The notes under the pieces are model-generated. The model searched no databases. It saw nothing but the letters and a program-made list of their open reading frames with translations, and was not told the DNA's origin. From the NCBI GenBank assembly GCA_032622095.1, contig CP136064.1, positions 273,133,614 through 273,197,613 of the forward strand: a DNA stretch of 64,000 bases, written 5' to 3'. Positions 18,299 to 60,190 of this stretch are shown one piece after another. Positions within the stretch are counted from its first letter, which is position 1, and every line of letters starts with the position of its first letter. The stretch comes from Siphonodentalium dalli (Eukaryota > Mollusca > Scaphopoda > Gadilida > Siphonodentaliidae). The position numbers and the translations under genes are program-made.

Positions 18299-18412
18299 CT
18301 AGACTTCACTCACTATGCCCCCGGTATATGCATTTCCTCCGTGTCCACCATGCGACTCAGGTGGGAGATCACTGTTTTGTCCGGTGCGTTCTGGTGTCCG
18401 CCTGTGTCCGTT
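18299..18412 (-). CDS. Mucin 1, candidate cytoplasmic-tail exon
   Basis: A strong acceptor (tatctttgttcttcag) opens the exon at 18412. In phase 0, matching the donor of the membrane-segment exon (20528), it encodes 37 residues and a TAG. The tail starts NGHRRTPERTGQNSD, is basic then glycine-rich, and ends IVSEV. If used, the C-terminus V-S-E-V fits a class I PDZ-ligand pattern (S/T-x-hydrophobic). A GTGAGT donor-like site sits 12 bases before the stop, so the exon may continue elsewhere (see 15388). A short upstream exon with acceptor and GTAAGT donor (about 18459-18513) would shift the frame and is considered less likely. Confidence 0.5.
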   Translation of the reverse strand, partial: NGHRRTPERTGQNSDLPPESHGGHGGNAYTGGIVSEV

Positions 18413-18518
18413 CTGAAGAACAAAGATAAGCGCGTAATAAATTATTCATGGAAAACAACTTACCACGTCTGTTGACATTAATGTTTCGCGTTATTCCACC
18501 AATTACCATCCACAGCTG

Positions 18519-18760
18519 CATGTAAAATTAGATCTAATTTGTTCTTATTTGAATTATTACTAACTCTCAAATAATGAGATTTCGCATGCCAAAGCCATAT
18601 AAACATTACTGTCACAGTTGGATTACATATAATATTCCAGAAAGTCCGGGGCCAAGATTCCAAAGTTTAATAAAAACATGACGGTAAACATTGGAAATGG
18701 TCAAAGCATTGAAAATATTCTGAAAATCATATTCAGACTAAGTTGTTTTAACGTATTACA
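18519..18760. repeat. Dispersed repeat family X, copy 2
   Basis: Matches 241-420 and 25740-26000 ('ttactaactctcaaataatgagatttcgcat', shared only in parts of less than 20 bases at a time). It lies within the mucin 1 intron. Confidence 0.45.
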
Positions 18761-19366
18761 CGTTTAGCGATCTTGGTTGGTAAATGACTATATGTCACTT
18801 GTCTCAACACAAGAAAGTTCGTTTTTGGAGAACTTCCAATAATGAATATAATATTCAATAAGTTTATCTATTTTATGTTATGTCCTAACGCCGTATGTGC
18901 TGATGCAACCAAGTTAGAAACTGTCAAACCACATTTGTTACACCCACTCGTAAATATTATACTGTAGACTTTAAAATTCCAGATATAGGCTGTGAAGGAT
19001 TCAACATATATCTTAACTGCAAAAAAACATCATACTTTTGTTATAAGCACCTCATACAGATCTTCGTGGCGATATCTTTCGTTCAGCTATTTCATTTTGG
19101 ACAATAATGTGATATACTTCCTTCCCGATACCATTCGGAAAGAACTCAGCACGGAATCATAGAATCATATATTTTCATCAAAAGTGTAAGTAAAAATTGA
19201 CTGGCAACCAGTGTGCCAACTTCAACAATCTTGTTAATAAAACAGTTTAGAAAATGTTTAACTAAAATAATTTAGGTTTTTCCAAGATGAACCTATGAAA
19301 GAACATAAAACTTCAACAGTATTGTAGAAATAAAAATAAATACACTAAATCTCTTTTTATAACACT

Positions 19367-19865
19367 TAAAGGTACGGAAGGCCTTGGCGGTGGGTATGCT
19401 GTGAACATATTTCCACCGGTCAAAAACCGCCACAAACAGAAAGGATATTAAAATGTAGACAGACTTTGTCCGTATACAAATAAGAAATATCGCATAAACA
19501 GTATGTTATTGTCATATTTTTTACCATTGTTATGTAAACAAAAGCATAACAAGTTACTTTCCTGGTGTTTGTTTATATTATGATGGTAAATATAAAGAGC
19601 GTTATTTGTTGCTGAATTCCTGATATGGAACTATTAAAGAGCGTTTGTATCATTTGTGTGTGATTAGCCAGTAACAATGTGCTGTCTCTGTAACACAATC
19701 AGGCTCTTGCTTAGGTAAAATAAAGTAGGTCTTTATGATAGCATGCTGTTTACGCGATGGTCATGGTATATATGAACGAAACTGTATGCGTGTTAATGTT
19801 ATTCTGTTTACGGTGATTGGAACAAATATGAATATTTTCGACAACTATGGCCTCCCGTGCCTTTA
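19367..19865 (+). mobile_element. MITE family A, copy 2 (about 499 bp)
   Basis: Inserted in the intron between the second and third mucin 1 exons. Ends are TA-AAGGTACGGAAGGCC and GGCCTCCCGTGCCTT-TA, a clear terminal inverted repeat flanked by TA. Interior text matches the copy at 2721, including both AAAGAGCGTT motifs. Confidence 0.85.
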
Positions 19866-20527
19866 ACTTGGTATTATAATACAACCACTGATAAATAAAA
19901 GAGACTGGATACTTCAAAAGTCGAAAAATGTAAAACTGAAATAGATATACTTTTCCTGAAGTAGCTGCATGGAAAAAGATCGGGAAACTCTCTCAATCAT
20001 TAATGTGACTACTAATGACAAGACAATACCTGCCTTCGATGAACCGAGTTAATCTGCGAAATATCTATCTACTGAGATGACTATATTTGTTACTTCCACA
20101 ATACTTAAAGTATCCAAGCATGGTATAGTAACTGCTGTCCAATTAGTGCAATAGTATATATAGTTGTTCAAGTAGACTAACAAATGTGGTTTGCAATAAC
20201 GCTGAGTTGATTGGCAGACTAATCAGGACATATTTAGACAATGTGGAATTGTGTATATTCTGCTTACATATATCAGCAATTGATCACATACTATTTCTAA
20301 CTGCATCCTGGTAAATCTCCTCGCTGTGTATATAATTGCAAAACTATATCAATACTAGTTAGCTTTTGGCGATTAACAATGATATGTCATGGCCATGTCT
20401 ACAAAATGTCAACAGTGTTTGACTCGAACGTCAAGATCTAGTTCGCTGTCTTATCATGTTTCACTAAAACATAGATGCTAAAACAGGTTAAACTGTCATT
20501 AGTAATGACACCCAGTGTCTGGCTTAC

Positions 20528-20667
20528 CATTCGGTTTTCTGTGGTATGCGCTGTCGATGTTGCTAGTTTGCCTTTTAGAAGCAACTTGGCTATGATTGCA
20601 CTCATTCCAACGACAAGGACTCCTTTTATTCCACCAATAGTTGACATGATCGTAACAAAATCACGTT
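20528..20667 (-). CDS. Mucin 1, transmembrane exon
   Basis: The exon is 140 nt, bounded by acceptor cttatttttttgcag and donor ATG/GTAAGC. It enters in phase 1, so the last base of the large mucin exon (21843) plus AA gives a Glu codon and the frame continues without a stop; it leaves in phase 0. It encodes 46 residues. Residues 8-30 (about STIGGIKGVLVVGMSAIIAK) form one membrane span, followed by lysines (KGK) as a stop-transfer signal and a Thr/Ser-rich start of the cytosolic tail. The ORF continues past the donor to 20438, but the GTAAGC site and phase make splicing more likely. Type I topology is inferred. Confidence 0.72.
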
Positions 20668-21842
20668 CTGCAAAAAAATAAGACGACATGAACACAGTTA
20701 TTAAATAAAACGGGCATCTGGAGTAACATATGAATAATATACAGCAGTAATTTAATTTGGTATTTACTTGGAATTACCATGTGTGTCGCAGCAATATTTG
20801 GAAACGCTAGACCAAAAGTAAGCGAATTTGTTCTGTTATATTAGCATTCCAACAGCCAATCGGTGTTTAGTACATTTATTGTGAAAAATCAAATATTTCC
20901 AACCTTCTGTCGTTGGGTAGTTTGAGGTGACAGTTGGAAAATTCCCATCAAAACAAATGGAATTTCTCAAAATTTCAGTCTGGATTCAAAAGTTGCTGTT
21001 TGAAATTCCAATGTGAACATCATCAATAATAGACCCTTTAGCCCGGTTACTACACGTGTGTATTGCAATCAAGATCGACATAGAGTAGTGAAGACTCTTC
21101 CAGTAGTTCATATTTCAGGTTTTAAATTATTCATAGTGATTGCTTCCTTTTGACACGTTGAAGATGAAAATATGTTAAAACTAATTAGCATATTTAGATT
21201 CGCATTCCGTATACTCTAAAAGTGATCGGAGTGACGGAAAGTTATCAGCCGTTTCACACAGAGGCTCTTCAATTTGATCATATTGAAAAGAGTCCCACCA
21301 ATGAACGCTCTTCGTTGCCACATAATTATGTTATACCAAAAGCGATCATATATATTCATACAAATCCAATAGATTGTGATGTCGGTTCGGATGCAAACAT
21401 TTTATGTTAGAACACAAAAGCACTGTATAATCCAAAGTAGTAGCCTATCATTTACTTTCACCACCTCTTGGTTTGTATATCTATCGATCCAGTCCACACT
21501 GTAAGCAGGTGATCAACAGATAGACAATTATATGACATTCTAATTGTTCGTGAACATCATACCTTAATGCATGTAATTTTGGTTTATTCACAGGTGTCAG
21601 GAAGCGACACCATAAGCGTTGTGCTTGATATCGGAGCACCTCTATACAATATATTCATATATCATATTTTATATTGCAATGTTTATATCAATTAGGTCAA
21701 TGCATAACATTTATGTTGAGAATAATCGACATGAACTCCATCAACACTTACCAAATAGTGCATATGTCCGTCACATTACATTGCTGATTAGATGCGTATC
21801 GGGGTGTTATTCAATACAAGTTTCTGATACTGTTCTACTGAC
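20668..21842 (-). other. Mucin 1 intron
   Basis: Starts GTCAGT at 21842 and ends TTTTTTTGCAG at 20668. No mobile element ends were recognised inside; small ORFs at 21222 and 21619 on the plus strand have no support. Confidence 0.6.
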
Positions 21843-24107
21843 CTGACCGAGCACGGGCTTCTGCGTTTTCGATATCCGTTGACTTCTTCCCTTGGTTAGG
21901 GTCATCGTTAGTAGTATCCGGGCTCGACATTGTCATTGTGGTGGTCGTAGTACTAGTAGTATCAATAGTTGTGGTAGTGGTCGCGCTATTCGTCGTGGTG
22001 ATAGTTGTTGTAGTTGTAGGGCTGGTCGTAGCTGGGGTAGTATTAATATTTGTGGTTGTAGTAGTACTAGTAATGGTGGTAGTGGTGGTGGTGGTAATAG
22101 TTGTGGTAGCAGCAGCCGTAGTAGTTATTAGTGTTGCTGTTGTCATTGTTGTTGGTGTTGTTGCAGTAGTTGACGGGGTAGTAATGATAGCTATTGTTGC
22201 TGTGGTGGAGGTGGTAGTAATGGTGGTGGTGGTGGTGATGGTAGAACTGGTGGTGGTTGTAGCAGCAGTCGTAGTAGTTATTACTGTTGCTGTTGGCATT
22301 GTTGTTGGTGTTGTTGCAGTAGTTAACGGGGTAGTACTGATAGCTAATGTTGCTGTGGTGGTGGTAGTAATTGTGGTCGTTAACGGGGTTGTTCTCGTTG
22401 TTGTGATCGTTAACGTTGTTGTTCTCGTTGTTGTGGTCGTTAACGTGGTTGTTCTCGTTGTTGTGATCGTTAACGTGGTTGTTCTCATTGTTGTGGTCGT
22501 TAACGTGGTTGTTCTCTGTCTTGTGGTCGTTAACGTGGTTGTTCTCATTGGTGTGGTCGTTAACGTGGTTCTTCTCGTTGTTGTTGTCGTGAAAGTGGTT
22601 GTGCTCATTGGTGTGGTCGTTAACGTTGTTGTTATCGTTGTTGTGGTTGTTTTCGATGTTGTGGTCGTTAACGTGGTTGTTCTTGTTGTTGTGGTCGTTA
22701 ACGTGGTTGTTCTTGTTGTTGTGGTCGTCAACGTGGTTGTTCTCATTGTTGTGGTCGTTAGCGTTGTTGTTCTCATTGTTGTGGTCGTCAACGTGGTTGT
22801 TCTCATTGTTGTGGTCGTTAACGTTGTTGGTCTCGTTGCTGTGGTCGTTAACGTGGTTGTTTTCATTATTGTGGTCGTTAACGTGGTTGTTCTCGTTGTT
22901 GTCGTTAACGGGGTTGTTTTCGTTGTCGTCCCTGATGTTGACGTTGTTTTGGTTGTTGTCGAAGTGGCTTGTTGAGCTGTCGTCGTTGCTGTTGTGGTTG
23001 TCACCGTTGTTGTAGTCGATGTAACATTTATCGTAGAAGCAGTAGTAGATGTTACTGTTGTTGTAGTAGTTTCCATGGTTGTTTGTGTCGAAGCTGTTAT
23101 CTTCATTGTTTCGCTGGTTGTTCTTGTTGCCGATAATGTTGTGGATGTTGTTGACATTGTTGTAGTAGTATCTGGTGTAGTCATTACTGTAGCAGTAGTA
23201 GTAGTTGGTAATGACGGTGATATTTCCGTTGTTATCGTTGTGGTGGTCGTTAACGTGGTAGTTCTAGTTGGCGTCGTCCATGCTGCTGACGTTGCTTCGG
23301 TTGTAGTTGTTGTGACTTGTTGCGCTGTCGTCGTGGCTGTTGTGGTTGTCACTGTTGTTGTTGATGTTGTAGTTGTCGATATAATAGTTGGCGTGGACGC
23401 AATAGTCGAACTGGCTGTTGCGGTAGTGGTTCCCAATGTTGTTTGTGTCGTGGTTGCTATCGTCATTGTTTCTGTGGTTGTTCTTGTGTTCGTTGTTGTT
23501 ATGTGAGTTGTTGTTGACATTGTTGAAATGGTCGGTGGGGTAGTTACTTCAATAGTAGCAGTTGTTATTGTCGCTGTTGCCGTTGTTGTGGTAGTCGATA
23601 TACTAGTTGTCGTAGAAGCAGTCTCAGAACTGTCAGTTGCAGTTGTGGTTTTCATGGATGTTTGGGTCGTGGATGTTATCGTCGTTGTGTCTGTGGCTGT
23701 TCCTGGTGTCGTTGCAGCAGTATGTGTACTACTAGTAATTGTCGTAGTAGTAATAGTGGTGGTAGTAGCGACAGTAGTGACTTCTGTAGTTGGAGTGGAA
23801 GTAGACGTCACTGTTGTGGTCGTTTTGGTAATATTGGGTATTGATTGTGTCATCGTAGTGGTCGTTTCCGTAGTCTTTCGAGTGGGAAATTGGGACAATG
23901 TGGTAATGTCGGCGTCTGTTGTTATTGCAGTGGTAGTGTCATCAGTCGTAAACGTATGTGTTGATGCTGCAGTAGTACTAGTTAGTTTCCGTTGTTCTGT
24001 CGTGGGTGTGAACATCCATGAACATGTAACGCAGCACACTTCTGGATTTATATATGATGCGCAACTGTCTGCCACACAATTCGGGGCCCTGTCTCCATAC
24101 GTGCAAT
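21843..24107 (-). CDS. Mucin 1: cysteine module plus threonine-rich mucin stalk
   Basis: This 2265-nt exon encodes about 754 residues. It opens in phase 1 after a branch-point-like ctaac and the acceptor tatattcaag. Residues 2-29 form a six-cysteine module, C-x8-C-x4-C-x8-CC-x2-C, containing TYGD and VADSC. It resembles the PLAC domain of papilin/ADAMTS proteins in its CC-x2-C ending, but this is only a likeness. From about residue 35 to 725 the protein is mostly Thr with Ser, Ala, Pro and Ile, dense in O-glycosylation acceptors, including about 18 copies of a 10-residue unit (RTTTLTTTTM). The end is polar (DDPNQGKKSTDIENAEARAR). The donor is TCAG/GTCAGT. The unspliced frame extends to an ATG at 24264 and includes a hydrophobic MHRLTYLSVSCYVIACYSL, a possible signal peptide if the acceptor is not used. 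The protein is probably a cell-surface membrane mucin. Confidence 0.85.
22375..22935 (-). repeat. 30-bp coding minisatellite in mucin 1
   Basis: About 18 tandem copies of a 30-bp unit (plus strand: GTTGTTCTCGTTGTTGTGGT plus CGTTAACGTG), each coding ten residues. Because the unit is a multiple of three, copy-number change keeps the frame. A further 140-bp direct repeat lies at about 22120-22345. Confidence 0.9.
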
Positions 24108-24289
24108 CTTGAATATATATGTAAATAGTTAGAGAATAACATGCTATAACGTAACAGGATACTGATAAATAAGTTAAGCGATGCATGTAACCAAACCGGA
24201 GCATCGTCCAACCGATTTGATCATCATTCAAAACATAATATTGAGGAGTGTTGGAGTGTGACAATTCTGTTGACAGTGTGTTACTTCAG

Positions 24290-24760
24290 TCTATTCAACT
24301 TCAACTTCAAGGTGGAATATAAACTGAATAGATTTGATGAGCCAATTACTCTGACTCATTTCAATGGAATGAACGTTGCTAGCAAACTCCATTGATTTAG
24401 TGTACACCAATTGTCTATTAATGACGTTGCATGCAGAAACGTTACTGTTACGGTAGGTCGTTACGTCGATCATATGCCAGCTATCTGGATAAGAAACATA
24501 CGCGGCCATGATAACACCTAACACGCTTCCACTGTGGATAGTACAGTGAATCGAGTGAGTGAGTGGTTGTCGACTGACATTTCTATGGAAAGGACGTTAC
24601 TTGGAGACTATTTTCAGTATTGGTTGTCATGTGATCGGCTCCGAAGATTGCCGGAGCTGTGCAAATTGAGTACAACCATCCATTAATGACGTTTTATGTA
24701 TGTGACGTCGATTTATTCACCAGCTGCCTGGATAAGAAAGACCAGAAAGTTATGAGAGTA
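24290..24760 (+). repeat. Pair of diverged direct repeats with a donor-like site
   Basis: The stretch at 24410-24495 ('attaatgacgttgcatgcag' ... 'gccagctatctggataagaa') matches 24680-24740 ('attaatgacgtttta' ... 'accagctgcctggataagaa') with a 20-bp length difference. The second copy ends in a strong AGA/GTAAGT donor at 24756 and has an open frame (VQIEYNHPLMTFYVCDVDL...) leading to it, but no convincing acceptor. It may be a duplicated relic exon. Confidence 0.35.
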
Positions 24761-25166
24761 AGTCTGAATCCAGCACGTGCGGAGCCAAAATGTAACATTC
24801 TATGCTGGTATATATGTTGCGACCATGAATCTGTGATTGGCTTTATGTCTTTATGCCGATATTAAAGATGTGTCAACACCGACAATATAATACAACCTAC
24901 ATACACTTCGATCGTGAACGTAGGGCGTATCATTCTATAGTCAGCAATCTTCGCAGATGTTGACCTAAATTACCACTTGGCCGCAGTTGACTGGCGGTAT
25001 CATCGCGAATTCGCGATACACATGTCACGATACGATACGCTTAATATCGTTCGATATTGTATCGCGATACATTGAATTCACGATGAATTGTTACAGCCCT
25101 CGTAATACTTGACCGCCGTTGATAGATATTTCAGTTGGTCGCAATTAGTATACATTAGGCCTGATT

Positions 25167-25567
25167 AAATAGTGATATTTCCGGTAACCCGCCCACCACT
25201 AGTCCAGACATCCGCCCATACTAGTTTTATTGATACCGTGACAAATTGTAACGCAATAACCCCCCAAAAAATCACAGTTATCGATATCTGATTGTAGTCA
25301 AACTGTGCTCAACGGTCACCGGTCTGCATTATTTACACTGGAATTTGGGGTTTGGCGGCACCTTTGTGTATACGGGCCACTTCAACAACCACGTTTTTAT
25401 TACAAATGCTGCGAATAAATACCCACAGTAATGTGCTTATTGTTTTCTTTTATACATGTACTGTGTCATCTCTTGTGCCAACTCAAAACATTAAAAACAA
25501 ATTTAATTAATTTTCGCTCACCTGCCGTACTTAATTTCCTTTTGTTACCGGAAATATCACTATTTTT
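25167..25567. mobile_element. Short inverted-repeat element (about 400 bp)
   Basis: Ends AATAGTGATATTTCCGGTAA and GTTACCGGAAATATCACTAT are inverted repeats of about 22 bp. There is no coding capacity. The ORF at 25431-25670 runs through its right end and is not supported. Confidence 0.6.
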
Positions 25568-25739
25568 TTTAGACGTGAGAGCTGTTTTGAAACTCGCGGA
25601 TAGAGTTGCGACTACATTTAGCTATTCGTTTTGTAAATTCATGTGGGAGCAAACAATTGCATCGCAATAACGACAACTATTTTAACTACTGTAAACAATA
25701 AATTCATGGATAATCGTTTGCAGTGAGATTTTCACTATG

Positions 25740-26020
25740 CACTATCTACAATGTTTTTATATTTATTATTAATAACTCTCCGATGATAAGATTTCACAGA
25801 TCGAAACAATTTTATGTAAACGTTACTGTTACAGTCATAGTGGTATTGTTGATCAATGTCTAATTAATCCAATAAGATACCAATTTGTTTAGAAAATGTC
25901 AAAGTATTGAAAAATATTATAATAATAATATTTAGACAAACTTATTTGAACTGACTTCGTGATTAGAAAGGTTGATTGACAAATCACTGTAACAGTTATG
26001 TTTACATAACACTAACAGTT
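25740..26020. repeat. Dispersed repeat family X, copy 3
   Basis: Related to 241-420 and 18519-18720. It has internal inverted tracts TATGTAAACGTTACTGTTAC (about 25814) and CTGTAACAGTTATGTTTACA (about 25988). Confidence 0.5.
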
Positions 26021-26032
26021 ATATCAAATCAG

Positions 26033-26144
26033 AGTGGTGAACTACCAACCCCTACATGGATTGAGCTGGCCGTCATATTCTGCGAATTTAACCTCCTGGA
26101 ATGTCGCGCATCTGCCCAGCGGAAGTGGCTAAATCAGCATACAG
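26033..26144 (+). CDS. Orphan internal exon, unknown product
   Basis: The exon has an acceptor (gttatatcaaatcag) and an excellent donor (ACAG/GTAAGT). Its 112 nt encode 37 residues in phase 0, starting SGELPTPTWIELAVIFCEF and ending AQRKWLNQHT, and it leaves in phase 1. It can be joined in frame to the exon at 27189. The combined sequence has a faint likeness to the middle of a von Willebrand A domain, which I do not consider proven. GC content is higher than in the flanks, as expected for coding DNA. Confidence 0.5.
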
Positions 26145-26212
26145 GTAAGTCACAATAGAAATGAGTCCCCACAAGATGGTAATAATTCCCACCCCTCTTT
26201 GGATGTTGGATT

Positions 26213-26472
26213 ATAAGCGAGATCACTGAGTCACCGCCATATTGTTTCCGCAGTTTAGGTGCTACAGGTCACATTTCTGGAGATGAAACTTTTGAATATT
26301 CGTGATTCCATATATGGATTTCATGAATACTGAAAAGCTCCATATATTAATAGAACCATGAATATTCAAAAGTTCCATATATGGAATGCACCTCCACATC
26401 TTTTACATGTAGCACACGGGGGGGGGGGGCTGGATGAATACAACATGGCCGCGACTCAGTGATCTCGCTTAT
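26213..26472. mobile_element. Small MITE, 260 bp (intron of orphan gene)
   Basis: Terminal inverted repeats ATAAGCGAGATCACTGAGTC and GACTCAGTGATCTCGCTTAT (the right arm carries CGC before GACTCAG). Internal inverted tracts (AACTTTTGAATATTC / GAATATTCAAAAGTT) give a strongly foldable element. A 12-base G run occurs near 26418. Confidence 0.85.
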
Positions 26473-27188
26473 TGACCCAAAATCTGTCTTTTTATATATC
26501 ACAAGGGCATTTACATGTACAGTATTATAGCAACAACAAAAGCCTTTTAGGTGTGTTGTTTTCTATCTTTACTAAACACTGATTTCATTGCTGGAAGACC
26601 AAATCAGTTAGATTTCGCTATTTTGTCGTTTTCACACTTTTGTTTTCGTTACGAAAGGCTATGGTTTTAGTAACTTTTTACCCAATATTCAGTCACCTTT
26701 GACCCAATTTATATGTTCATACATAACTCAATTTTAGTTAAAGTCTACTAAATATTTAGTTATAACCCAATTCCATTGGGTTACTCTGGGAGATATATGA
26801 ATATGAGATATTATCTTTATAGCAGCAGTGATACAATACTATTGTGCAAATGTATTGTCAGATAACTATTCTATTTCCAGAAATACCTATTTTTGATCTC
26901 CTGTAAAATAAGATATTTGGCATTTACGACATTTTGGAACCCCACCAACGATATCAGATGCATGGAATGCAGTTATCATATAATTTATGAATTGATGAAC
27001 ATGCTCTTTTAACACAGGACACCTTGTTTGTATCTATATTATACATAGTTCCTGACTATTATAGCTTCAGGATATAACACATACAATTCCAAATGCATGT
27101 ATGTAGCCAGCTATCCGCTAGTGATTATTGCGAAAAAAGAAGGGTATATGATAGATGTTTGGTTGATTAAGGTTTATCATCGTTTCAG

Positions 27189-27301
27189 CAGCTATGCCAT
27201 ATCACGACGGTATCAGTTTTACGGGTGGCGGAAATACCACACAGAGGGGTAATTTAATAGGGAAATGGATGACACTTCGAAATGCCTTAAAAATAAAATA
27301 A
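27189..27301 (+). CDS. Orphan exon, probably terminal
   Basis: The acceptor tttatcatcgtttcag has an optional CAG shift. Entered in phase 1, as left by the exon at 26033, it encodes AMPYHDGISFTGGGNTTQRG and then NLIGKWMTLRNALKIK to a TAA at 27299. AATAAA-like sequence overlaps the end (about 27292). The phrase PYHDG...FTGGG is reminiscent of the loop before a late helix in von Willebrand A domains; low confidence. A GGG/GTAATT site could be an alternative donor. Confidence 0.42.
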
Positions 27302-27943
27302 TAGACTGAAACCCCGATATATGCAGACTCAAAAATATACCCGACCTTTAACAGTGACCCTGAATATCACACACAACAAACTGAATTACCCGATACCCGA
27401 GCGAAAGATATCTATCCAATTTAGTTACACTGATCATTTTATTTTGACCAATCATATTCTACGATAACTGCAATAGATACACCTGTTTACTTAAACACAC
27501 CACAACACTGTCCGAAAACAAAAACAGCGAGCGTTGTGTTTTTCCAGATAGCTGTCGAACCAATATTTACAATACAGTTTCAATATGGATAATTTACTAA
27601 TTATACTGTTTATGGTAAACTCTGAACGTAAAATAATTAAAGTTGCACTTATAGTTTGGAACTTTGATTATGTAAACTTGAAATACTTATTACACACCAT
27701 CAACCACTTTAGCTGTTTGAATACGGGACATTCAAAGTTATTATGAAGGAAACAAAATAGTCTTGTTTTTATCACCAATATTTTAGCTAAAGAAAGCTCA
27801 TTTTCGGTCAAAGATATGTCAAGGTAGAAACTAATATCACTGCTTCGTCTTGTTGTTAAGTTGAACGGTGCCTAAAAATAGATTGTTCCAACACAATATG
27901 TGCCTTTAAATATTTCCGAAAGTCACTGGTACGAAAGTAGGCC

Positions 27944-28183
27944 ATGTCATGGCAGAGTCCGCTCTTCCATGTCCTGGGTCGAGAGCATGAGTGAGTGCGT
28001 GTATTATGTCTTTTCTCTTTTGTTATTGTTTGTTCACAATAAAACAAATTTAATAGGGAAATCGCATCGCTGCATGAAGAAACCGCCGAACCCCTGAAAG
28101 AAATTGACAAACTTTCACAGGTACACAATCAGATTGCCCTCACTTTTGCATCCATCGCGAATCCGCGTCTGTCGATGCTATAA
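27944..28183 (+). CDS. Two-exon mini-ORF with a 66-nt intron, unknown product
   Basis: Exon a (27944-27990) starts at ATG and ends GAGCATGA/GTGAGTGC. The 66-nt intron (27991-28056) has a pyrimidine tract and ends aatttaatag. Exon b (28057-28183) continues in frame to TAA. The product is 58 residues, starting MSWQSPLFHVLGREH, with an acidic helix-like middle (EEIASLHEETAEPLKEIDKL) and the end SIANPRLSML. An in-frame TAG just before the ATG could instead be the AG of an acceptor, making this the 3' end of a longer gene. A CAG/GTACAC site at 28120 may be an alternative donor. No family recognised. Confidence 0.42.
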
Positions 28184-28368
28184 CAAGCTTCGTCAGCGCC
28201 TGACGGCATATGACGGAGTAATGTTCTGAGGATCGACTGGACAACGTGAGCCCCGGATATAGGATAGCATGATATCACTTGACAACTGACACGAGGTAAT
28301 GATGCAAAGTACAACAACAGTGTGTTCATGATGCGCCGACAGAGATAGTCTGGCCGTTGAAGCATTGG

Positions 28369-31119: not shown

Positions 31120-31268
31120 TGTTATACATACACATGCTAACCACAATACCTACACATGTTAACCATAATACCTACACATCTTAGCAATAATAAATACACA
31201 TGTTAACAATAATACCTACACATGTTATCCATAATACCCGCACATGTTAACCATAATACATACACATG
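31120..31268 (+). repeat. 22-24 bp minisatellite
   Basis: About six imperfect copies of CACATGTTAACCATAATACC with a TA spacer. No coding frame. Confidence 0.8.
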
Positions 31269-32570
31269 TAAACGTCCGTACATCGACTGGGTACCAAATG
31301 ACTTTCTCCGCTGAACACATTCCAAAGGGTGAAATCGTTTAGTACATCATGTTGCTTATTGCTCTCCTTGTAGTTAGGTCTCATAAGAATATATCAACTC
31401 GTCGGGCATTATACGTTTATTAATATCTTATTAATATTATATATTATAAATATATACATAGTATTAAGCAATCATATTGATATTCATATTCACAGTATAT
31501 GTCTGGCATGATAATTAGTAAAGATTAGCTAAAACTGTGCAAGTGTAAAGGACGGGGCGACAGCGTGGATCGGGGATGTATGACACCTCAATTTTGAATT
31601 CGGAATTGTCATGTCTTAGTCAACCCATGCCCCATGGTTGGACATTTAGACAGCAAATGAGATAGATATTGGTCTAATGTGTTATTTTTCCAACCAATAT
31701 TTAAAATGAAGTGAAAGTCCCAAAATAACGCACCTAACACAATTAAATAGAGAATATCCGCATAGTGTAGCTGAATAAAGAATTCATGTTTGCGAGTATG
31801 TGGGCATCTATTTGGCGAGCACAAATAAATTATGTTTATCCACGGAACAAATTTAAATGTATTTTATCGCATCATTTTGGTCATAAAACGTCGCAAAATT
31901 CACAGGCTCCTTATAGAGAAGCGATGACCTACTTAGCGATTTTATCTGTATAGTAGAGACTAATTAATTATGAAACAGTTTATATTCATGCGACTGCACC
32001 GCGAAATAGTCCGCTTTATAGTTTCTAATTTATGTCGGAAAAATATCAATGCATGGTGTAATTTAAAAAAAATCTAAATGATTCGCATAATGTTCAAATC
32101 TAAAACTGAGGTGCACGAGTATAGCAGTAATGTGAATTTGGATGTTTTTGCTTGAAACTTATTAATGAATTGATTGCCTGAACTTTAGCAGTAGCACTTG
32201 CACCAAGATCGACAGTGCGAATGCACCAGCTCATGTTAGAATATCGTACACTTTATAGTAACAAACTGCCAATTGCTTAAAATCAAGTTATAGACTTCAC
32301 CAACTAAACATTGAAAAATTGTATTTAAGTGCGCTTTGGTGCACATTGTTTGATCTTTTAGAATGGGTCGCCACCGATTGCACGAAAATACGTTGCATGG
32401 ATGTTAACATTTCTAAGGACGCTGTCGCTAACAACTGAAACCAGCTTGGTCCGTTTTAATGATGATCCATAACGTTGTTACGACCCTGTGACGCCACTAA
32501 CGAACTGCTGGAGGTTAACTGGTCCAAGTTCTTGTAACCTTTCTCCCTTGCATATCATTAAGTTTATCTA
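31269..32570. other. No gene seen
   Basis: AT-rich DNA. Only a 71-codon minus ORF (31609-31824) is present, without support. Confidence 0.4.
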
Positions 32571-32700
32571 TCTAGTAGAGGATGCTTTATCTGTCTTGTA
32601 GACGGATAGAGGCGTGGTTTATCTGATGGCTTTATCTGTCTAGTAGACGGATGGAGGCGTGGTTTATCTGATGGGCTTTATATGTATAGTAGAGAGGGGT
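32571..32700 (+). repeat. Tandem repeat, unit about 50-55 bp, 2.5-3 copies
   Basis: Shared text is 'ctttatctgtct(t/a)gtagacg', 'gat(a/g)gaggcgtggttta' and 'tctgatgg'. Confidence 0.75.
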
Positions 32701-32705
32701 AGGAG

Positions 32706-33146
32706 GTGGATAACAATATTTATGTTGTATCTCAATTATCAGCACGCCCAGTCATATGTTGTATGCGTTTGTGTCTTACTAGATCTTTGTATCTAGAACA
32801 ATCATGTCTAACCGTGCATCCGACTGTCGTCCCTCAGAAATGTCGACAGCAGAGTGATGCTCAAATTGCTACCAAAATTATGCTCTTACAGGAACTTGAC
32901 TATATCTATTTTCAGTCGAAATACAGTCGATTTGGACATGGAATTGACACTCGTTGGAAGACCCCTCCCCAAAATACCTGTCGCCTAATCCCTGTGTCCA
33001 CAGTATATCTTATTGAAACATACAGATCTTTATCTTTATTCCGACCACAATTGCACACCGACACAACATTCTGCAAACAACAATCTCATCCATACGGGTG
33101 TGATATTGGCCATTTTACATTGAGGTGTTGTATTTCGTTATTATAG
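32706..33146 (+). CDS. Unrecognised 146-codon ORF
   Basis: The open frame starts from GTG, so the true start is unknown. The composition is mixed and cysteine-containing (CCMRLCLTR near residue 20; C at about 93, 123, 132 and 142). No signal peptide, membrane span or family motif is obvious. It directly follows a short tandem repeat. It is longer than most chance ORFs here but has no splice or homology support from reading alone. Confidence 0.25.
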   Translation: MDNNIYVVSQLSARPVICCMRLCLTRSLYLEQSCLTVHPTVVPQKCRQQSDAQIATKIMLLQELDYIYFQSKYSRFGHGIDTRWKTPPQNTCRLIPVSTVYLIETYRSLSLFRPQLHTDTTFCKQQSHPYGCDIGHFTLRCCISLL

Positions 33147-33202
33147 TTGTATTGCCTGCTTATCTACTACTATTCGAATGTAATATTTAACCGACAATTT
33201 AT

Positions 33203-33268
33203 GTAAATGGTATTCCACTCTTATATTCAGAATATTTCTGAATACAATAGTGTAATACCATTTACATA
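33203..33268 (+). repeat. Compact hairpin (about 66 bp)
   Basis: Arms TATGTAAATGGTATT...ATATTCAGAA and TTCTGAATA...AATACCATTTACATA pair with a few bulges around a small loop. This could be a solo foldback element or a small-RNA hairpin; sequence alone does not decide. Confidence 0.5.
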
Positions 33269-33985
33269 TATACATATATATATGTGTTACAGCCAAACTG
33301 ACCATTACTGACCATTTCAGTTCGTATCTATAATCATGTTTTTCTTCAAGTATTGTGTTACCTAAAATACCTAAAATATTCAGCTAGTATGCGCATTATA
33401 GATATTAACCGAAACAATAGCTAGTTATTATTATTACACATCGGAAAATGTACAGTCGCAGATAGAAATATCACTCATTTGAGATTAACAGGGAGACATT
33501 TGCCTCAATTTGACATAGATAATAAAGACATTTATTCAAATTGTTCTCATCAAATGCAAATTCCAGTTAACATATCTGAATAACTGCTTACAGTGTCCGT
33601 TATTATATATAATAACTGGACATGTCATTACACCTATAATAACTGATGAAAGCAGGAACTATACATAATAACTGAAAATTGTAGTTAATATACATAACAA
33701 CAGACTATACATTTTAACTGTAACACATACAGACATTTATCCCTGGAGAGGCAATACAGAATCTTTTTAGTTTACAAAACAATATGTCCAGATTAAAATG
33801 TATGTGCCCACCTTATTAGCATCGTTGATTGTGTTCATTTGACCAACTGCCCAGGCGGAGCATTTCGGAAAAGACCACTCTGATAGCCATACTCATTATT
33901 TACTAGTTTTCACGAGTTCAGTCTATTTTAAGACCGGACGACCGCCTTATCACATCTCTGGAATTTGATTCAAATTTGGTTTATA
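33269..33985. other. No gene seen
   Basis: AT-rich, with repeated 'ataataactg' phrases at about 33610-33720. Confidence 0.35.
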
Positions 33986-33987
33986 GG

Positions 33988-34125
33988 CGACGCGACACAC
34001 CATGAATCACCGCGACACGCCATGAATCACCGCGACACACCACGAATCACCCCAACACACCATGAATCACCCCAACACACCATGAATCACCGCGACACAC
34101 CATGAATCACCGCGACATGCACCCC
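33988..34125 (+). repeat. 20-bp minisatellite, about 6.5 copies
   Basis: Unit CGCGACACACCATGAATCAC with C/A and G/C variants. Copies abut with no spacers, so it is not a CRISPR array. Single related motifs recur at 34430 and 35425. Confidence 0.9.
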
Positions 34126-34199
34126 ATGGATCATTGTAATCACCGAGAACATTCAATATATACATCGGGAATCGCATTTCACAGGTCTACAATTATCAG

Positions 34200-35670
34200 G
34201 GTTACAGGTCTACATGTCTCAGATCGTCATGTTCGCGTTCATCAAAAGTGTTAACAATGCAAGACAAGACACTTATCAATATTTAGTTAATACTGAACCA
34301 ACACAAATCGAAATGGAGTAAAATAGTATAAGTCATTATCGGTGTTTTCTGGCGATTCGCAATTGTTCGCAGTGATTTTTCAGGATTTCAGTTGAATTAT
34401 ATAAATCCTCTCAACGAAAGTTCACCATGGATCACCGCGATACGAATCTCCATGAAACCTGGTGATTCACAGTTCATCCCCGGAGCCTCCCCGATCAAGA
34501 ATGTTTTGATTATAACACTCGTAACATACTATCGCAGTTGTTTAATTAAATGATACTCCACTGAATAGATGTGAACTTCCAATATTTGATCAAACTGATA
34601 TGAAAATAATCATGAAATATTAGCCAACAATTATATATATATATATATATGTACAGGTAGATGATTTTTGCATACAAAATAATATGTACATGATGACCTG
34701 TGCCAATGGACTAGCACCCAGTCTGAGACATGCCCAACGGAAGGGAGTGAAACCAATCAATACAGAACTGAACTGTGCATTACAGTTCCAGATAGATCTA
34801 GCAATTTTAAATACAACCAACCACAAAGCAGTGTTTGTAATATTTTTGGTTGTTTTTATAGAGACTACATTCCGCCTTGAAATGACACAACCAATGAAAT
34901 AGCGTCCAATATGATGGAGGGAATCCCATCAATACAGAACTGAAATGTCCAGTACAGTCTGAGAGTCTCAAATATGATAAGAATATCGTCGGCGTTTACA
35001 AGAGACCAAGTTACATTATGTAAAGTGTGCAATAATCAAAACACCCAATAAGTGATTCGACGTGACCAATTTAACACTGAAAGCTTGAGTGACGCAGATT
35101 AGCGAGCGCTATATGGTGAAATAACATCATGGTGGCAGTATATCCAAACCTCATTATATATGCGAGTATAATGCGACCATGACTCATCGTGAACCTGTTA
35201 GATGTCCGACAGAAATCCCAGTTAAGAATGTTCTAAAATAAATCGGAATGGCCTAAAATAGTCTGAGTAATGGTCGGTGTTTTCCGGAGATTCTCAATAG
35301 TTCTCGGTGTTTTCCGGAGATTCTCGATAGTTCTCGTTGTTTTCCGGAGATTCTCGATAGTTCTCGGTGATCATCAGGGATTTATGTCGATTCATATTAA
35401 TCCGCTCCATGAAAGATTTCCGTGAATCACCGCGATACAAATCACCATGAAACCTGGTGATACACAGTGACTCCCCCGGTGTTGGAGTTGTTTTCTTATC
35501 TTATCTTATCGCAATCTTTAGATAATGTAACAGTTACTCAATGAAATTAAAACACACTCCCAATATTATATCAAGCTGATATGAACAAAAAAACTAAATA
35601 TTATCCTAAAAGGTGATGATTGTTTATAAACAAAATAGTATACATGATGGCCTGTGTCGTATACTATAAC
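34200..35670 (+). repeat. Diverged tandem duplication, offset about 0.98 kb
   Basis: 34320-34700 resembles 35240-35665. Anchors are 'tcaccgcgatacgaatc/tcaccgcgatacaaatc', 'ccatgaaacctggtgat', 'aactgatatgaa/agctgatatgaa' and 'catgatg(a/g)cctgtg'. The second copy contains three 30-bp units (GTGTTTTCCGGAGATTCTCG plus ATAGTTCTCG, 35276-35370). Confidence 0.7.
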
Positions 35671-35849
35671 ATTAACACATCCGGTGGTTTGAGCGCATAT
35701 GTGCCGTGTTATATAAACCTCGATAATATAATGGCGTAAGCGACTCTTGTAAATCACCAGACTAGGAATATTGAGTAATACCGACCTCAAATGATGTAAC
35801 ATTCAGGCCCTCAATTCCCCCCAAAATGCAAAGATATCATTGTCAAGTG

Positions 35850-36008
35850 AATATCAGTAAATACATGGATGGATATCTTATAATTCATTTCCCGGTGATG
35901 CATGGTGTAAATAAATGGATGTATATTACAAATGATCTTACAAATCATTTCTCGGCGATGCATGATGTAAATACATGGATGGATATCACAAATGATCTTA
36001 AATAATTT
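35850..36008 (+). repeat. Tandem repeat, unit about 55-58 bp, three copies
   Basis: Units share 'taaatacatggatggatat' and 'catttc(c/t)cgg(t/c)gatgcatg'. Confidence 0.8.
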
Positions 36009-38488
36009 CGCGGCAAGGCGTGGCCAATCAACAATGAAAGTCAGTCAAACAACATAAACCACAACTATTATATTACAAAATTAGTTAATTAATAAGGATC
36101 ACTCATATTGCAGATATTGTGTATTACAAATTAGAACCATAGCTATTAAGTATTTGCCTTATGAAACGTTCAGGTAATAAGATAAAAACATGAAATTTCG
36201 GCATCATAATTCCTTCAGGTATAACTGTATTGAGGTAACCGTTCTAGATGCTAATATCCACTGCACAAGTAACCAGACAAATCAACAATATAGAAAATGT
36301 GCAAAGAAATGAAACACGCAAATGAAAACTAGGGTTTGTGCCACCGCGGTGGAATATCAATCCCACTTGCAACTTCAGCAGCTGTAAGTGCCACGCGATG
36401 CGTGGTCAGTTGCGACAAGCCAATAGTCTCAATGTTGTGTGCTCATTATACTTCCATACTTTTACTTAGGTGGTTTTCTTGTGAAATGACGGATTAAACG
36501 CGCGTTATATAATTGATCTTCAAACTTGTCGGTTATAACTGCATAACCTTAATCGAAACAAAGATATTTCTTAAATGAATGTAAGTATATACATGTCAAT
36601 ATACAAGTACGGTACTATGTACACGTAACACATTTGTTGGCTCTTAGTTCACAACAAAAATCATAATAACATCAGTTCAAATGAGTAATGATACAACGGT
36701 GTTATTTAACATAATTAATGTTAAGCATCTTCGTCGTGTAATTTAAATTGAATGTGTATGCACGTTATTGTAATTGAGCAGGTCATATACACCAGTTTTC
36801 CATGCAATTTAAAGTATGTGTTGAAAGTGCTTATGTTGCCTATACAAATTTAAACATTAAAGGGTAGATCGTAATATTATGATAGGGTAGGTAAATTTAA
36901 TGTTCAGTTCAACGTGCTAAAATGGAACTGTTTTATTAGGACCCGATATAGGCTAGAGGTAGCTAATTGTGTCCATGGTATTTGTGAATAGTATGTGTGT
37001 CTCTGCTTGAAACCAGTCACCAATAAAACTGATTTATATCGTTAAATAAATGGTGGCGTTTCTCCGCATACATCCACCACTGACACATTGTAGTACATGT
37101 AGAAGCAAATCATAAAGTTTCGATTGGTTTTCATGTATATTGTCACTTGCAACACATGTGGGCCAAAATATATTATCTGCTTCTTATTTTAAAGTTAAAA
37201 TGTTGCATTTAAATGGTATGCTACAACTGGTTGGGCAGCATAAAATGGAAGCATGGTGGTGTTACTTTGCTCAGTTGTGTTTGAAAGTTATTCGCTGGTG
37301 TCATCAATAAAACACTCACTAAGTTTATGAAACAGGCATGTATACATTGCATGATAGCCAATATGGGCCCAACAAAGATCAGTTGACCAGTGATAATATA
37401 GTTTCCTTGTTCGGCATCACATGCATATATTTAAAAACAAAAGAGAGCTATGTTGTTGTTTTGTCAACTTTCGAAATGCTTTTGACAACATTACGTGGAC
37501 AATGACTATGGGCTGAGTTAATATGCACTGACCTAAGTTTATGGCAAGTTCACTAAGATTACCCGTATAACGTACGTATTCAGCACCCTATATCATTAAC
37601 AATATCACTTATTCACTGTGTGACGTTGATTAACTATTCTCATACTTGATGGATTATCCCACTCAGTTAAACAAGTATACACTGGAATGATATATTATTC
37701 TATGGGAGGTGTGTTCGGGTAACAAACCAGGTAGAGCAACATATAATACAAGAGCACAATAATGCATGTTCATTGCTGTGAAATGTTCAGAGAACTTAGT
37801 TTGTTGAACTTATTATCGGAACATTAACTAAGTGAACTACTCATCAATTATCGTTCAGTATATAAAGCGTTAAAGATCCTTTCTCTGTGAGTTAGAAGTT
37901 TTCGTTTCAAAGTAAAAAGTGGTCGCTTTGTTGCATTTTGTCATATCTGTAGATGCTAAACAATAATTTTCTCAATATTGTTGCCGCAATAACAGTCATA
38001 TGGTAACAACAGATTCTATCTTCTTGTGTTATTATCAGATGGTTACTTCAAATTAAATTTCCAAAGGCGTCATTTCAACTTAGAGATAACGTCAAATTGC
38101 AGAATTCTAACGCATTGTATATTCCAGTCCCGAAAGTGATTTTAAACTTCCTTTACGTTCAAGTTGGTCTTGAATTGAGCAGACTTAAATTTCTTGTATC
38201 GAACCTTTTCTTGGTAGACTAAATCGGCCAATAATATTTCGTCCAACTGTTATAAATGATATATACCCGTCTAATGGAATTTGTGATGTTTTGCAACAAA
38301 TAGAATTGAGATAATTCTTTCAAGTATGTTGAACTTAATGTTCCGGGGACGTATTTTATAAGTAAACAGCATGTTGTTTTTATTTTTCATTCATGAACGT
38401 ATCAAATTGTAAGTTGTTGAACAACAGGCTGTAAAATTGCGTGAACTTATACAGTATACTGTGTGACCACTTACAATTGTATACGCCA
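36009..38488. other. No gene seen
   Basis: About 2.5 kb of AT-rich DNA without ORFs of 60 codons or recognised repeat ends. Two GC-rich palindromes (CCACCGCGGTGG near 36343, and GCCACGCGATGCGTGGTC near 36391) stand out. Lies downstream of mucin 2. Confidence 0.4.
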
Positions 38489-38898
38489 ATATATGACCCG
38501 CCATATCAAATCCAGTCGTAAGTCGGGATTTTGTTTACCCTATGCAAAATGTAATCTCTTATATATGCGAGTCGACCATAGGTCGCCTCGCATATATAAG
38601 ATAATGCATTGGCCTAACAATTTGTTATCATTTTTTTTAAATAAATGTTTCTTACAATTTTTAGGACATAAAATAAAAAAAAATCCATTACCCTGCAGGG
38701 AGCCCCTCACATATATAGAAGCACATAGAAGAGTGTCGTCTGCACATATTTGTCTGGGGCTCTGTATGGGTGAAATTATAAAATTGTTAAAGAATACAAG
38801 AAAAAATTATTAAAATTGTAAAACAATTGTTAGGCCAATGCATCAGGGTAAAAAAATCCCGACTTTCAACTGGATTTGATATGGCGGGTCACATATAT
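38489..38898. mobile_element. MITE family C, copy 2, overlapping the mucin 2 3' end
   Basis: Ends ATATGACCCGCCATATCAAA and TTTGATATGGCGGGTCACAT match copy 1 (14733-15202). The interior is shortened by about 60 bp on the right. The right terminal repeat is read through by the mucin 2 open frame on the minus strand. Confidence 0.9.
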
Positions 38899-39291
38899 GC
38901 AACAAAAAGATGTTGGTTGCTTTTATTTTCACGCATTTCAATTTAATGCAGAATTTGGACGAATGTGCGCGACCTGGTCGTGTTCCCTTATTATACACAT
39001 CATCAAGCTCCAAGTACTCATGAGATGGAATGTTCATACGCGCTAGATCTGTCGGCACGAGATAGGGTTTTTTAGCCCTGACCGCCTGAAATCCAGTTTT
39101 GTACATTGCAGACTCTCTTATTTCGGCGTAAATCCTCTTGTCGACAACTTCTGCATATATGCCATTGTTCGGCTCTGCACGTGGTGTTGGTTCTGTTTTT
39201 TTCCGATACCTCCTATAACCACACATGCCTAGGACAGCCATGGCGAATAATCCAATTGGAATCGCTACCAGATATGGAATCATCTTGAACA
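38843..39291 (-). CDS. Mucin 2: transmembrane and tyrosine-motif cytoplasmic exon
   Basis: Acceptor cattatttatag; phase 1 entry matches the GAGTTAG/GTAATA donor of the mucin exon (41407). The exon encodes 148 residues to TGA. Residues about 4-26 (MIPYLVAIPIGLFAMAVLG...) are the membrane span, followed by the stop-transfer RRYRKK. The tail has Y45 (YAEV), Y54 (YAEI), Y76 (YLVP) and Y92 (YLEL): tyrosine plus hydrophobic at +3, the general form of SH2-docking or endocytic motifs. YAEV and YAEI are nine residues apart. From about residue 132 the codons and the stop come from the terminal repeat of a MITE, so the original C-terminus was probably different. No internal donor was convincing, so I take it as the last exon. 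Confidence 0.75.
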
Positions 39292-41406
39292 CTATAAATA
39301 ATGAAAGGTGTGTATATCAGAATGAATGGAGGCACTGGCTCAGTATTAGTATAATTGTATTATTCGACCAGAAGCTCTTCATAGGTTGTGTTTATATATA
39401 TGTTTATTCAGAGTTTAAATAAAAATTATATTATCGTATCGTATATTGTTTCATGTATAATCGAAATTGTCATGTTTCAATCAGAATGGCAAACTGAGAT
39501 GTGCCTCAACTCAGAACAAGTTTGAAAATGATAGATTATCGCCTGGGGTCCAGATTATCGCCCATGCTCGGGTCCAGATTATCGCCTGGGGTTCTAACCC
39601 TCCCACCGTCCCATCCATATTTATATGATCCATAATTATATTCTTGTAAAAGGTAAGTGTTATATTAATGTGTGGTGACTTACTGATTTTTACATTGATC
39701 CACGTGGTCAAATACTTTTCTTTTTGGTGATACATGGCTCATTATTCTCATGCACACGGCTTACTTACATGTTGTAAGTCTTTAATTAGATTTTAGTAAT
39801 ACGCAACACCCGCGTGGTCTTATTGCCAGGTTTTTATGCCCGGTTTTTATGAGTAGCGAGTATTGTTCTTTATTTGATTTTAATGTCCATATCGCTGTGA
39901 TTTCTTTTTTTTAACCATTTTCTTATTTCGAACCAGTTTCTCAGTTCTCATACATTTTAATATCCGCTTCAAATACATATGATCTTAACTTATTCCGTTT
40001 CATACGGCTCAGCTTTCTCAAACTCGCACGCCTCATATATATTGTTTCACACCTTTTCAAAATGTTTTCACTAAATTGTATCTTTTTCTCGCATCAGCAA
40101 ACTGTTTCCTTTATCACATATGTTTAAACTGTTAACATGCACTTAAATGCAGATAGTCTGAAGTGTTATGTGTTGTTTTAGATAACTTGTATGTATATAT
40201 TTTATTGCACTTTGTAAGCCGTTTTAGAGCACATGTGTGGTTTTACGGTATACAAAATAAAATTATTATTATTATCCAGATGCGATTGCGATGATGGTGT
40301 CTGCGACCTAACGGCATCATCCACCGGGACATCTTAACATTAGGTTTTTTCCCCGAGAGTTAAACTGCGATTTGTTATTGCTACGACAATTTCATGATAG
40401 TGCCTCATAATCTTGAGCTGTCAAATTATTTTCAGAGCAAGATGTTGATTGGGGAAATACATGTTAAATTAATGTGATGTTAAAAGTACATAGTGTTAAC
40501 TGGGCATTTATGATTTTCAGATTGGCAGTAATGGATTTTATTATTCGGGAATGCTGTTTGCGTTCTTCTAATATGCTACGGTCGGCGATCTCAACAAAGG
40601 TTTGATCTATATGTGGTTGTCATTGCTTTTGTCGGGGTATTGCAAATAGGAGAGCAACTGGAGCGTCGTATGTTGGCAAAGTATATAATTTTCGTCAAAT
40701 GTACATAGTTACGTGACCACTAATTATTAGAGTATATGCAAATGAGTAGAGAGAATAATCAGCTGTTACATTCCCCTAAAATAAATGAGGGTAGACGCTC
40801 TTTATTAGCCATGTTTTCTTTATGAGACGATGGATTTCACACCTGTATGAACTACATTAATATACATTATTTTTGCGAACTATTGTATCCACAGAATCGG
40901 ATTGAAAATTGAAACTAGTTTAAGTGAGTGTTACATATTATTTTCTGATCGGCGCGTGGTTGGCCAAAATCGGCAATGCCGTTCGTCAGTCAGGATCGTT
41001 AGAACTGAGACCATATGTTAAATATTATTTCACTCGGCCAAATGTCATTGATAATGTCAAATGAATTGTTGTGAATATATCTTGAGATACATTATAAATT
41101 AATTATAAAGTAATTGCAACTGTTCTTATTAATTATTAACTATAATCAATAACTTCGATCACAAAGTATATTTGTGTTAGTATTCGTTATCATTTTGTAT
41201 CACCGTTCTTGTTAAAGGATAGTACAATTATTGTATTAGTTATATATGTGCGTATTGTGTCTGTGTATGGTTGTTATGTAATCTCATATCCTGTGCGGGT
41301 GGCAATTTAATAATACTCCATATTCTCTATTATAAATTATTATGTAATTTGAGGTTTGCGTACAAAATAACGCGTTTTCGTTTTATAATCTTAGTACATG
41401 TATTAC
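39292..41406 (-). other. Mucin 2 intron
   Basis: Runs from GTAATA at 41406 to TTTATAG at 39292. Contains a three-fold 'gattatcgcc' repeat at about 39533-39590. A phase-compatible small exon ending in a GTAAGT donor (about 39689) is conceivable but its acceptor is poor. Confidence 0.6.
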
Positions 41407-41844
41407 CTAACTCGTCGCTTTCATCAGCACCCTGGCCTAACGGAGTCGTTATTTTGGCTGTAGTAGTGGCGGTTATCTTCCTTGCCGTGGTCGCTGTTGT
41501 TGTCGTGATGGTAGTGAACGTTGGCGTCGCTGTTGTCGTTCTCGTGGGCGTCGCTGTCGTCGGTGTCGTCATTGTTGGCGTCGTTGTTGTCATTGTTGGC
41601 GTCATTGTTGTCGCTGTTGTCGTCGTCGTTGTTGGCGTAGGTGTTGTCGTCGGCGTTGTTGTCGTTGATGTCGTTGTTGACGTGGTCGTCTGTGTTGTTG
41701 TTGTCGTCGGCGTTGTTGTTGTCGTCGGCGTCGTCGTAGTAGTAGTATAAGTAGTAGTTATGGTGCAAGTAGCGCAACATGCGTCAGAATTAGTGGTACA
41801 ACTATCTGCATTACAAGAGGTTTCTTTGTCGCCGTACTCGCACC
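41407..41844 (-). CDS. Mucin 2: cysteine module plus threonine-rich stalk
   Basis: The 438-nt exon follows the acceptor tttttttcaccgtag in phase 1 and ends at GAGTTAG/GTAATA in phase 1. Residues 2-27 form the six-cysteine module C-x8-C-x4-C-x6-CC-x2-C with EYGD and NADSC, the same layout as mucin 1. Residues 28-130 are almost all Thr with Pro, Ser and Ala (TTTTTTPTTTT-like, PTMTTTTPTMTT), a short O-glycosylatable stalk. The end is acidic (QGADESDEL). The stalk is about one sixth the length of that of mucin 1. A signal-peptide exon should lie upstream on the minus strand but was not found. A paralogue of mucin 1, same strand, 17 kb away. Confidence 0.85.
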
Positions 41845-59348: not shown

Positions 59349-59474
59349 CTGCTGGCAATCCAAGTTTCCTTCTAGAATTGCACGTTCTGCAGCATAGCTC
59401 CTGTACATTCGATTCGTAACATCTGCCGCTGAAGATATTTGCACAATCGTTGGGATACCAGTCTCCAAGGCAAT
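59349..59474 (-). CDS. Orphan exon, unknown product (second of two)
   Basis: Acceptor aatttcgtttctcgtcag and donor CAGCAG/GTAAAATAAG delimit 126 nt, 42 codons, phase 0 at both ends. The product reads IALETGIPTIVQISSAADVT then NRMYRSYAAERAILEGNLDC-QQ, an alpha-helical-looking, soluble sequence with one cysteine. It joins in frame to the exon at 61236 (which ends in phase 0). If the donor is not used, a stop follows after two codons (VK), so it could be the last exon. I do not recognise the family. Confidence 0.6.
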
Positions 59475-60185: not shown

Positions 60186-60190
60186 CTTTC

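Follow-up and report, generated by a model that had tools for sequence, protein, structure and literature searches.

A probable ADAMTS-like pseudoprotease carried on a membrane mucin stalk in the scaphopod Siphonodentalium dalli

Anatomy of the locus

The window analysed here is a stretch of 64,000 nucleotides of Siphonodentalium dalli (contig CP136064.1) that holds two genes, gene A and gene B, both on the minus strand. The analysis rests on the genome sequence, from which anatomy, frames, phases, homology, motif loss and family clustering were read directly; exon joins were predicted by frame, phase and splice borders. Four exons of gene B lie in the window. A 49-nt exon, which we call GGVC (61236..61284, phase 0 to 1, encoding RCSGGVCTDSPGAPLA(G/D)), is followed by a first six-cysteine exon, head 1 (59349..59474, phase 1 to 1, DCLGDWYPNDC..CCRTC..LPAG). 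Next comes the exon for head 2 and a Thr-rich stalk of 119 codons past the head (41407..41844, phase 1 to 1), and finally a membrane exon with a tyrosine-rich tail running to the stop (38843..39291), which contains IYAEV, IYAEI and other tyrosines. Gene A consists of an exon for a head and a Thr-rich stalk of 726 codons past the head (21843..24107, phase 1 to 1), a membrane exon encoding IGGIKGVLVVGMSAIIAKLLLKGK (20528..20667, phase 1 to 0) with homologues at six further places, and a putative last exon (18299..18412) with an AG acceptor, phase 0, a tail ending in GGIVSEV and a stop. This last exon is uncertain, since it had no homologue in the loci searched up to that point.

A preliminary description of this DNA had presented the two genes as paralogous membrane mucins sharing a six-cysteine head. 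Both heads were confirmed, as C-x8-C-x4-C-x8-CC-x2-C in gene A and C-x8-C-x4-C-x6-CC-x2-C in gene B, and a six-frame scan with the strict cysteine pattern found these two places and no other in the window. On checking the sequence, the junctions 21843/20667 and 41407/39291 are phase 1 as proposed, and the head exons have AG/GT borders. The roughly sixfold difference in stalk length also holds. Threonine makes up 57% of the stalk in gene A and 62% in gene B, the third codon position is the most variable in all ten stalks examined, and the Thr/Ser/Pro-rich stalk adjoins a membrane helix, as in a membrane mucin.

The 49-nt exon and head 1, a third six-cysteine exon, were absent from that description, and both fit gene B. 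The former has AG/GT borders and a phase that suits both its neighbours; we take it to resemble the end of the ADAMTS cysteine-rich domain 2. The head 1 exon also occurs in a paralogous locus at 254593190 and, as CMGDW, upstream of a gene at 273.05 Mb.

Two repeats were noticed within gene B. An array at 60102-60682, open in three minus frames (PTTTITPPLGTISQPPPSPRHSER...) and also present in the copy at 254.596 Mb, is, judged by reading, probably a minisatellite in the intron between GGVC and head 1. At about 38480-38910, facing copies of CCCGCCATATCAAATCCAG... at the end of the gene B tail resemble, by eye, an inverted-repeat element of small size; the right copy lies partly over the end of the gene B frame, which is not conserved.

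Protease exons of gene B

Four more exons of gene B were recognised to the right of the window, at 273220520-273220415, 273213697-273213539, 273212443-273212314 and 273211390-273211271. Joined, the eight exons make a continuous reading frame of 524 residues whose phases agree throughout and whose only stop is the terminal one, and the seven internal borders carry AG acceptors and GT donors. In Pfam, the product matches part of Reprolysin (PF01421, positions 106-197 of 200, E 3.4e-6) and the whole length of ADAMTS_CR_2 (PF17771, positions 2-69 of 69, E 2.4e-9), both over the cut-off; the latter match covers residues 110-179, and most of the 49-nt exon falls within it. Up to an E of 1 the ectodomain had no further match in Pfam, and NCBIfam gave none at all. 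Thrombospondin type 1 repeats were not found in the 256 spliced residues of gene B that were scanned, although no TSP1 model was run genome-wide and an unseen phase-0 exon could lie between the exons CR2b and GGVC. The membrane exon is in frame with the rest and has a best 19-residue hydropathy of 2.11, which differs from the secreted, helix-free form of an ADAMTS protein. The term 'membrane mucin' is thus incomplete for gene B, where by frame and phase the mucin forms the 3' half of an ADAMTS-like gene. For gene A, in which we detected no protease part, the term may still be apt.

An early check of the window had found no HExxHxxGxxH motif. At the position of the zinc motif, gene B reads HALGVNLNLTQDG and lacks the pattern HExxHxxGxxHD; the solved M12B enzyme 4q1l has HELGHNLGMRHDG in the same columns, and the alignment sets AHELGHNLGMRHDG opposite AHALGVNLNLTQDG. 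Two relatives could be read through both catalytic exons, which were joined by eye. They have HELGH (L072 and L073) and then, after an intron, SLSLPHDG and SLSLKHDG, giving HELGHSLSL(P/K)HDG; the Glu and three His are present in these motifs (HELGHSLSLPHDG and HELGHSLSLKHDG), and in each a Ser stands in place of the usual Gly. LGMEHDG was read in a third relative, at 254.63 Mb, whose HELGH exon was not found, and GLVHDG in a relative on contig C3. Judged by the alignment with 4q1l, the catalytic Glu and two of the three zinc His are lost in gene B, while its exons are still open.

Apparent movement of the 3' module

The exon order MP2, CR2a, CR2b, GGVC, CLGDW head, mucin head and B-type transmembrane (TM) exon (TM_B) recurs at 254.58-254.63 Mb. 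Between the two loci a piecewise alignment extends over window positions 41.8-61.5 kb, mostly at 75-92% identity, and over the 3' module gene B and the 254.58 Mb gene are about 85% alike in DNA. The 49-nt exon, RCSGGVCTDSPGAPLAG, differs from the copy at 254.597 Mb at one of its 49 positions, a change that is synonymous in the frame fitting its neighbours. Collinear non-coding similarity ends just upstream of this exon, at window position 61503; further upstream the blastn matches are scattered, save for 57 bases at the CR2b exon. Synonymous divergence (dS) between the two genes is 0.07 for GGVC and 0.15-0.16 for the two head exons, but 1.43 for CR2b and saturated for CR2a. In the tail, similarity to the 254.58 Mb copy stops near TRPGRAHS. 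Since the 3' modules are about 85% alike while CR2a and CR2b are at or near silent-site saturation, the anchors appear to have moved between protease genes, and we read this as a 3' module that was probably copied or converted between two old protease genes.

A gene family clustered in the genome

The family was searched for in the species' own genome (2.23 Gb, 9 contigs), with the three head peptides from the window as queries for the head; all genome counts are lower bounds. The resulting list of 31 head places includes weak matches, and two of them, L011 (C7:71655940) and L018 (C4:254899500), show no head pattern on reading. Contig C4 carries 24 of the 31, grouped into three clusters (254.4-254.9, 272.8-273.2 and 281.6 Mb). 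Head exons at 254750076, 254593190, 249736885, 249734087, 273056283 and window position 59474 are additional to the list. Among the loci read there are two kinds of head exon, a mucin-type head joined to a Thr-rich frame and a short exon in phase 1 at both ends, for example GCEYGDKASWCSTLTAAGCYLNDANCCETCHNFINPNLPTG or DCLGDWYPNDC...; by our own tally, ten mucin heads are preceded on their strand, at a distance of no more than 20 kb, by a short six-cysteine exon. Intact relatives exist beside the broken copies L005, L006, L007 and L028.

The A-type TM exon was found at seven places, six of which have a listed head some 3-12 kb upstream. Six of the seven (five of the six further homologues of gene A) have a CAG acceptor in the same phase; the one at 254252349 has no AG acceptor and no listed head within 140 kb. 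The B-type TM exon stands behind a head at all three of its loci, with three weak or doubtful matches elsewhere. The tails of genes A and B are unrelated to each other, as first described, but because both types recur behind other heads they form two recurring classes. Paralogy, membrane anchoring and a fixed head with changing tails, which had been deduced from the two genes, are now backed by the genome-wide family.

ADAMTS_CR_2 (PF17771) matches 45 places in the genome. Ten of these lie within 60 kb of a listed head, a limit of our choosing, against 0.04 expected; all ten are on the strand of the head and seven are upstream of it, clustered matches not being independent. PF13582 matches 25 places, and those at 254506624 and 273103643 sit 23 and 50 kb upstream of listed heads. 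None of the six PF13688 matches at E up to 0.01 is near a head, and three loci around such matches contain no head by pattern search.

Other forms were met during the search. Three loci at C3:249.7-250.0 Mb (L015, L021, L024) and one at C4:278.645 Mb (L026) have heads of a CR(F/Y)G type, most of them joined to Thr stretches, with ADAMTS_CR_2 matches 7.7-30 kb upstream. In three of these four a hydrophobic C-terminus such as AEQQIYIYLVFLIIPYIMF follows, which is perhaps another form of anchor. At C4:84177776-84178408 (L041) lies a single-exon frame of 902 codons that encodes an M12B domain, HELGHSFGSHHD and a hydrophobic stretch; it has the look of an ADAM-type copy without introns.

Identity of the six-cysteine head

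The three heads of the window, taken alone, matched no Pfam family, and neither the head profile nor the stretch from CR2 to the head matched a solved structure. The cysteine spacing had suggested ShK. This was unsupported: none of the 47 places listed for PF01549 at E up to 1 is at a head (150 of 154 candidates scored), and comparison of the ShK profile with the heads gave 0.1-0.3%. Similarly, none of the 25 places listed for PLAC (PF08686) at E up to 10 is at a head (150 of 366 candidates scored). Profile comparison showed a weak similarity of PLAC to the short heads (61%, score 20.5). Of 40 shuffles that keep the cysteines, none reached the observed score for the short heads, three did so for the mucin-type heads and one for all heads together. 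We regard PLAC as a weak resemblance to the head and nothing more. An AlphaFold model of the gene A head, built from the three heads of the window, had a mean pLDDT of 62.6, did not resolve the fold and was not used further.

The nature of gene A

Gene A adds a second anchor module to the family to which gene B belongs. A TM_B module followed by a TM_A module on the same strand, with no queried protease exon between them, is found both in the window and at 254.742/254.728 Mb. Eleven exons of the family were used as queries on the 14.7 kb between the gene A head and the last exon of gene B, and none matched there at E up to 0.5; in the same search the CR2a, CR2b, MP2, GGVC and CLGDW exons matched between gene B and the 254.58 Mb gene, at about 1e-7 to 1e-17. 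Gene A could serve the gene B unit as an alternative 3' module, could be a gene that has a small 5' exon of its own, or could be a relic. Against L002, the membrane exon of gene A has a dN (nonsynonymous divergence) of 0.34 and a dS of 0.73, and this ratio, together with the open stalk of 726 codons, favours a coding module. Scans of the upstream regions gave no convincing signal exon for either gene. One candidate, MDFNVRN... near 254.7377 Mb, was rejected as a dispersed element; the repeat, encoding MDFNVRNVKCIVFLLFLINSSFPIVVCYV, occurs at 86-100% identity at C4:254737585, C7:27303203, C4:114830221 and C1:276829377.

Interpretation

We consider it probable, though well short of certain, that the product of gene B is an ADAMTS-like pseudoprotease, set on a mucin stalk and ending in a tail with tyrosine motifs, which acts as a receptor or decoy. 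What follows on the expression, splicing, glycosylation, topology, binding and signalling of this protein is what we infer from its sequence. The product would be a type I membrane protein with a partial M12B domain, ADAMTS_CR_2, two six-cysteine domains, a Thr stalk, one helix and a YAEV/YAEI tail. The stalk, presumably O-glycosylated, would hold a non-cutting ADAMTS-like ectodomain off the membrane, where it could bind a substrate, an inhibitor or a microbial ligand without cleavage. Because the zinc site is destroyed while the exons are open and spliceable, binding without cutting is the most likely activity, and the protein most likely serves at the cell surface as a receptor or decoy for the ligands that its sister proteases bind. 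Those relatives in which the Glu and three His are retained would be active proteases tethered to the membrane. Phosphorylated tail tyrosines (IYAEV, IYAEI) might bind SH2 proteins and signal, by analogy with MUC1, whose YEKV motif is reported to be phosphorylated and to bind c-Src (PMC8897942).

Several points weigh against this reading. The first half of the reprolysin domain, a propeptide and a signal peptide were not recognised among the listed open frames of the next 16.7 kb, where no homology search was made. The joins between gene B exons are predictions from frames and splice signals, and two introns, one of 16.4 kb between CR2b and GGVC and one of 17.5 kb between head 1 and head 2, would allow two transcripts. 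That YAEV and YAEI are SH2 ligands is our assumption, guided by their likeness to YEKV. Three of the ten ADAMTS_CR_2 matches near heads are downstream of one head, all at C4:214.29-214.32 Mb. ADAMTS proteins are described as secreted (PMC3712723). Pairwise dN/dS is mixed: for 17 exon pairs, 16 of them computable and one with a dS of 0 and hence no ratio, values range from 0.27 to 3.23 and are at least 1 in six, some of these involving broken copies. Positive selection on the heads was considered and dropped, the pair counts being too small and mixed.

A rather unlikely variant, worth keeping in mind, is that the mucin anchors are interchangeable: gene A would be an alternative 3' end of the gene B transcript, giving one ectodomain with two stalk lengths and two tails, and the modules would move between protease genes, as the divergence pattern above suggests.

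It is also unlikely, in our view, that the mucin exons are plain membrane mucins with their own promoters and signal exons, the upstream protease being a separate gene. The long introns suit such a division, as does the lack of any queried protease or other six-cysteine exon in the 14.7 kb from gene A up to gene B. Signal-exon candidates with phase-1 donors do lie upstream of gene A, two of them well scored (29119-29002, 8.2; 34152-34101, 7.5), and the 17.5 kb intron of gene B contains one weak candidate (49694-49574, donor 3.8). However, the eight exons of gene B agree in phase and order, and a second locus repeats the order. Relaxed scans upstream of the first six-cysteine exon in five genes gave candidates with donor scores of at most 5.3 and no signal exon in common. 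On the plus strands, taken as a rough background, the numbers of candidates were 4 and 0.

We are doubtful that gene B is instead a decaying pseudogene of an active membrane protease, its zinc site lost by simple decay. Relatives in the clusters are indeed broken, with frame breaks or stops in the tail or stalk of L005, L006 and L028 and one head cysteine lost in L007, and the gene B tail has a dN/dS of 0.83 against L028 and 3.23 against the broken L005. Yet gene B itself runs through its eight exons without a stop or frame break and with canonical splice sites, heads 1 and 2 each keep all six cysteines, and the protein of the GGVC exon is identical to that of the other copy. A further possibility, that the loss of the zinc site and the anchoring are genuine but that the protein serves mainly in the glycocalyx and does not signal, is very improbable: the stalk is mucin-like in composition and a function of the tail is deduced only, but tyrosine motifs recur in the tail of the 254.58 Mb relative (YAEI, AMY, YLVP, YLQLDDVY), a copy that has a break and an early stop.

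If gene B is a membrane-held pseudoprotease, it would illustrate a route from matrix protease to cell-surface receptor, with intact-motif and dead versions and different tails in one clustered family. One could then test whether a pseudoprotease originates next to its enzyme as a decoy or sensor, and how stalk-and-tail modules are exchanged between genes. The literature searched, as titles and the starts of abstracts with most subscription papers outside its scope, contained no description of mucin-stalk-anchored proteins of ADAMTS type.

Comparison with known systems

With ADAMTS proteins gene B shares the succession of Reprolysin and ADAMTS_CR_2; HExxH and the third His are still present in two relatives. 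Gene B differs from ADAMTS proteins in ending in six-cysteine domains, a Thr stalk, a membrane helix and a tail, and in its lost zinc site. ADAM proteases are membrane-anchored M12B proteins with cytoplasmic tails, and gene B resembles them in this arrangement; its ectodomain, however, matches ADAMTS_CR_2 and Reprolysin, and it carries a mucin stalk and six-cysteine heads. The PLAC domain has the same cysteine order as the heads, C..C..C..CC..C. MUC1 has a mucin stalk, a membrane helix and a tail with a tyrosine motif in common with gene B, with no relation in sequence claimed, but is not known to have a protease ectodomain. TIM receptors likewise combine a small fixed head, a mucin stalk and a tyrosine tail; their head is an Ig domain, unrelated to the six-cysteine head of this family.

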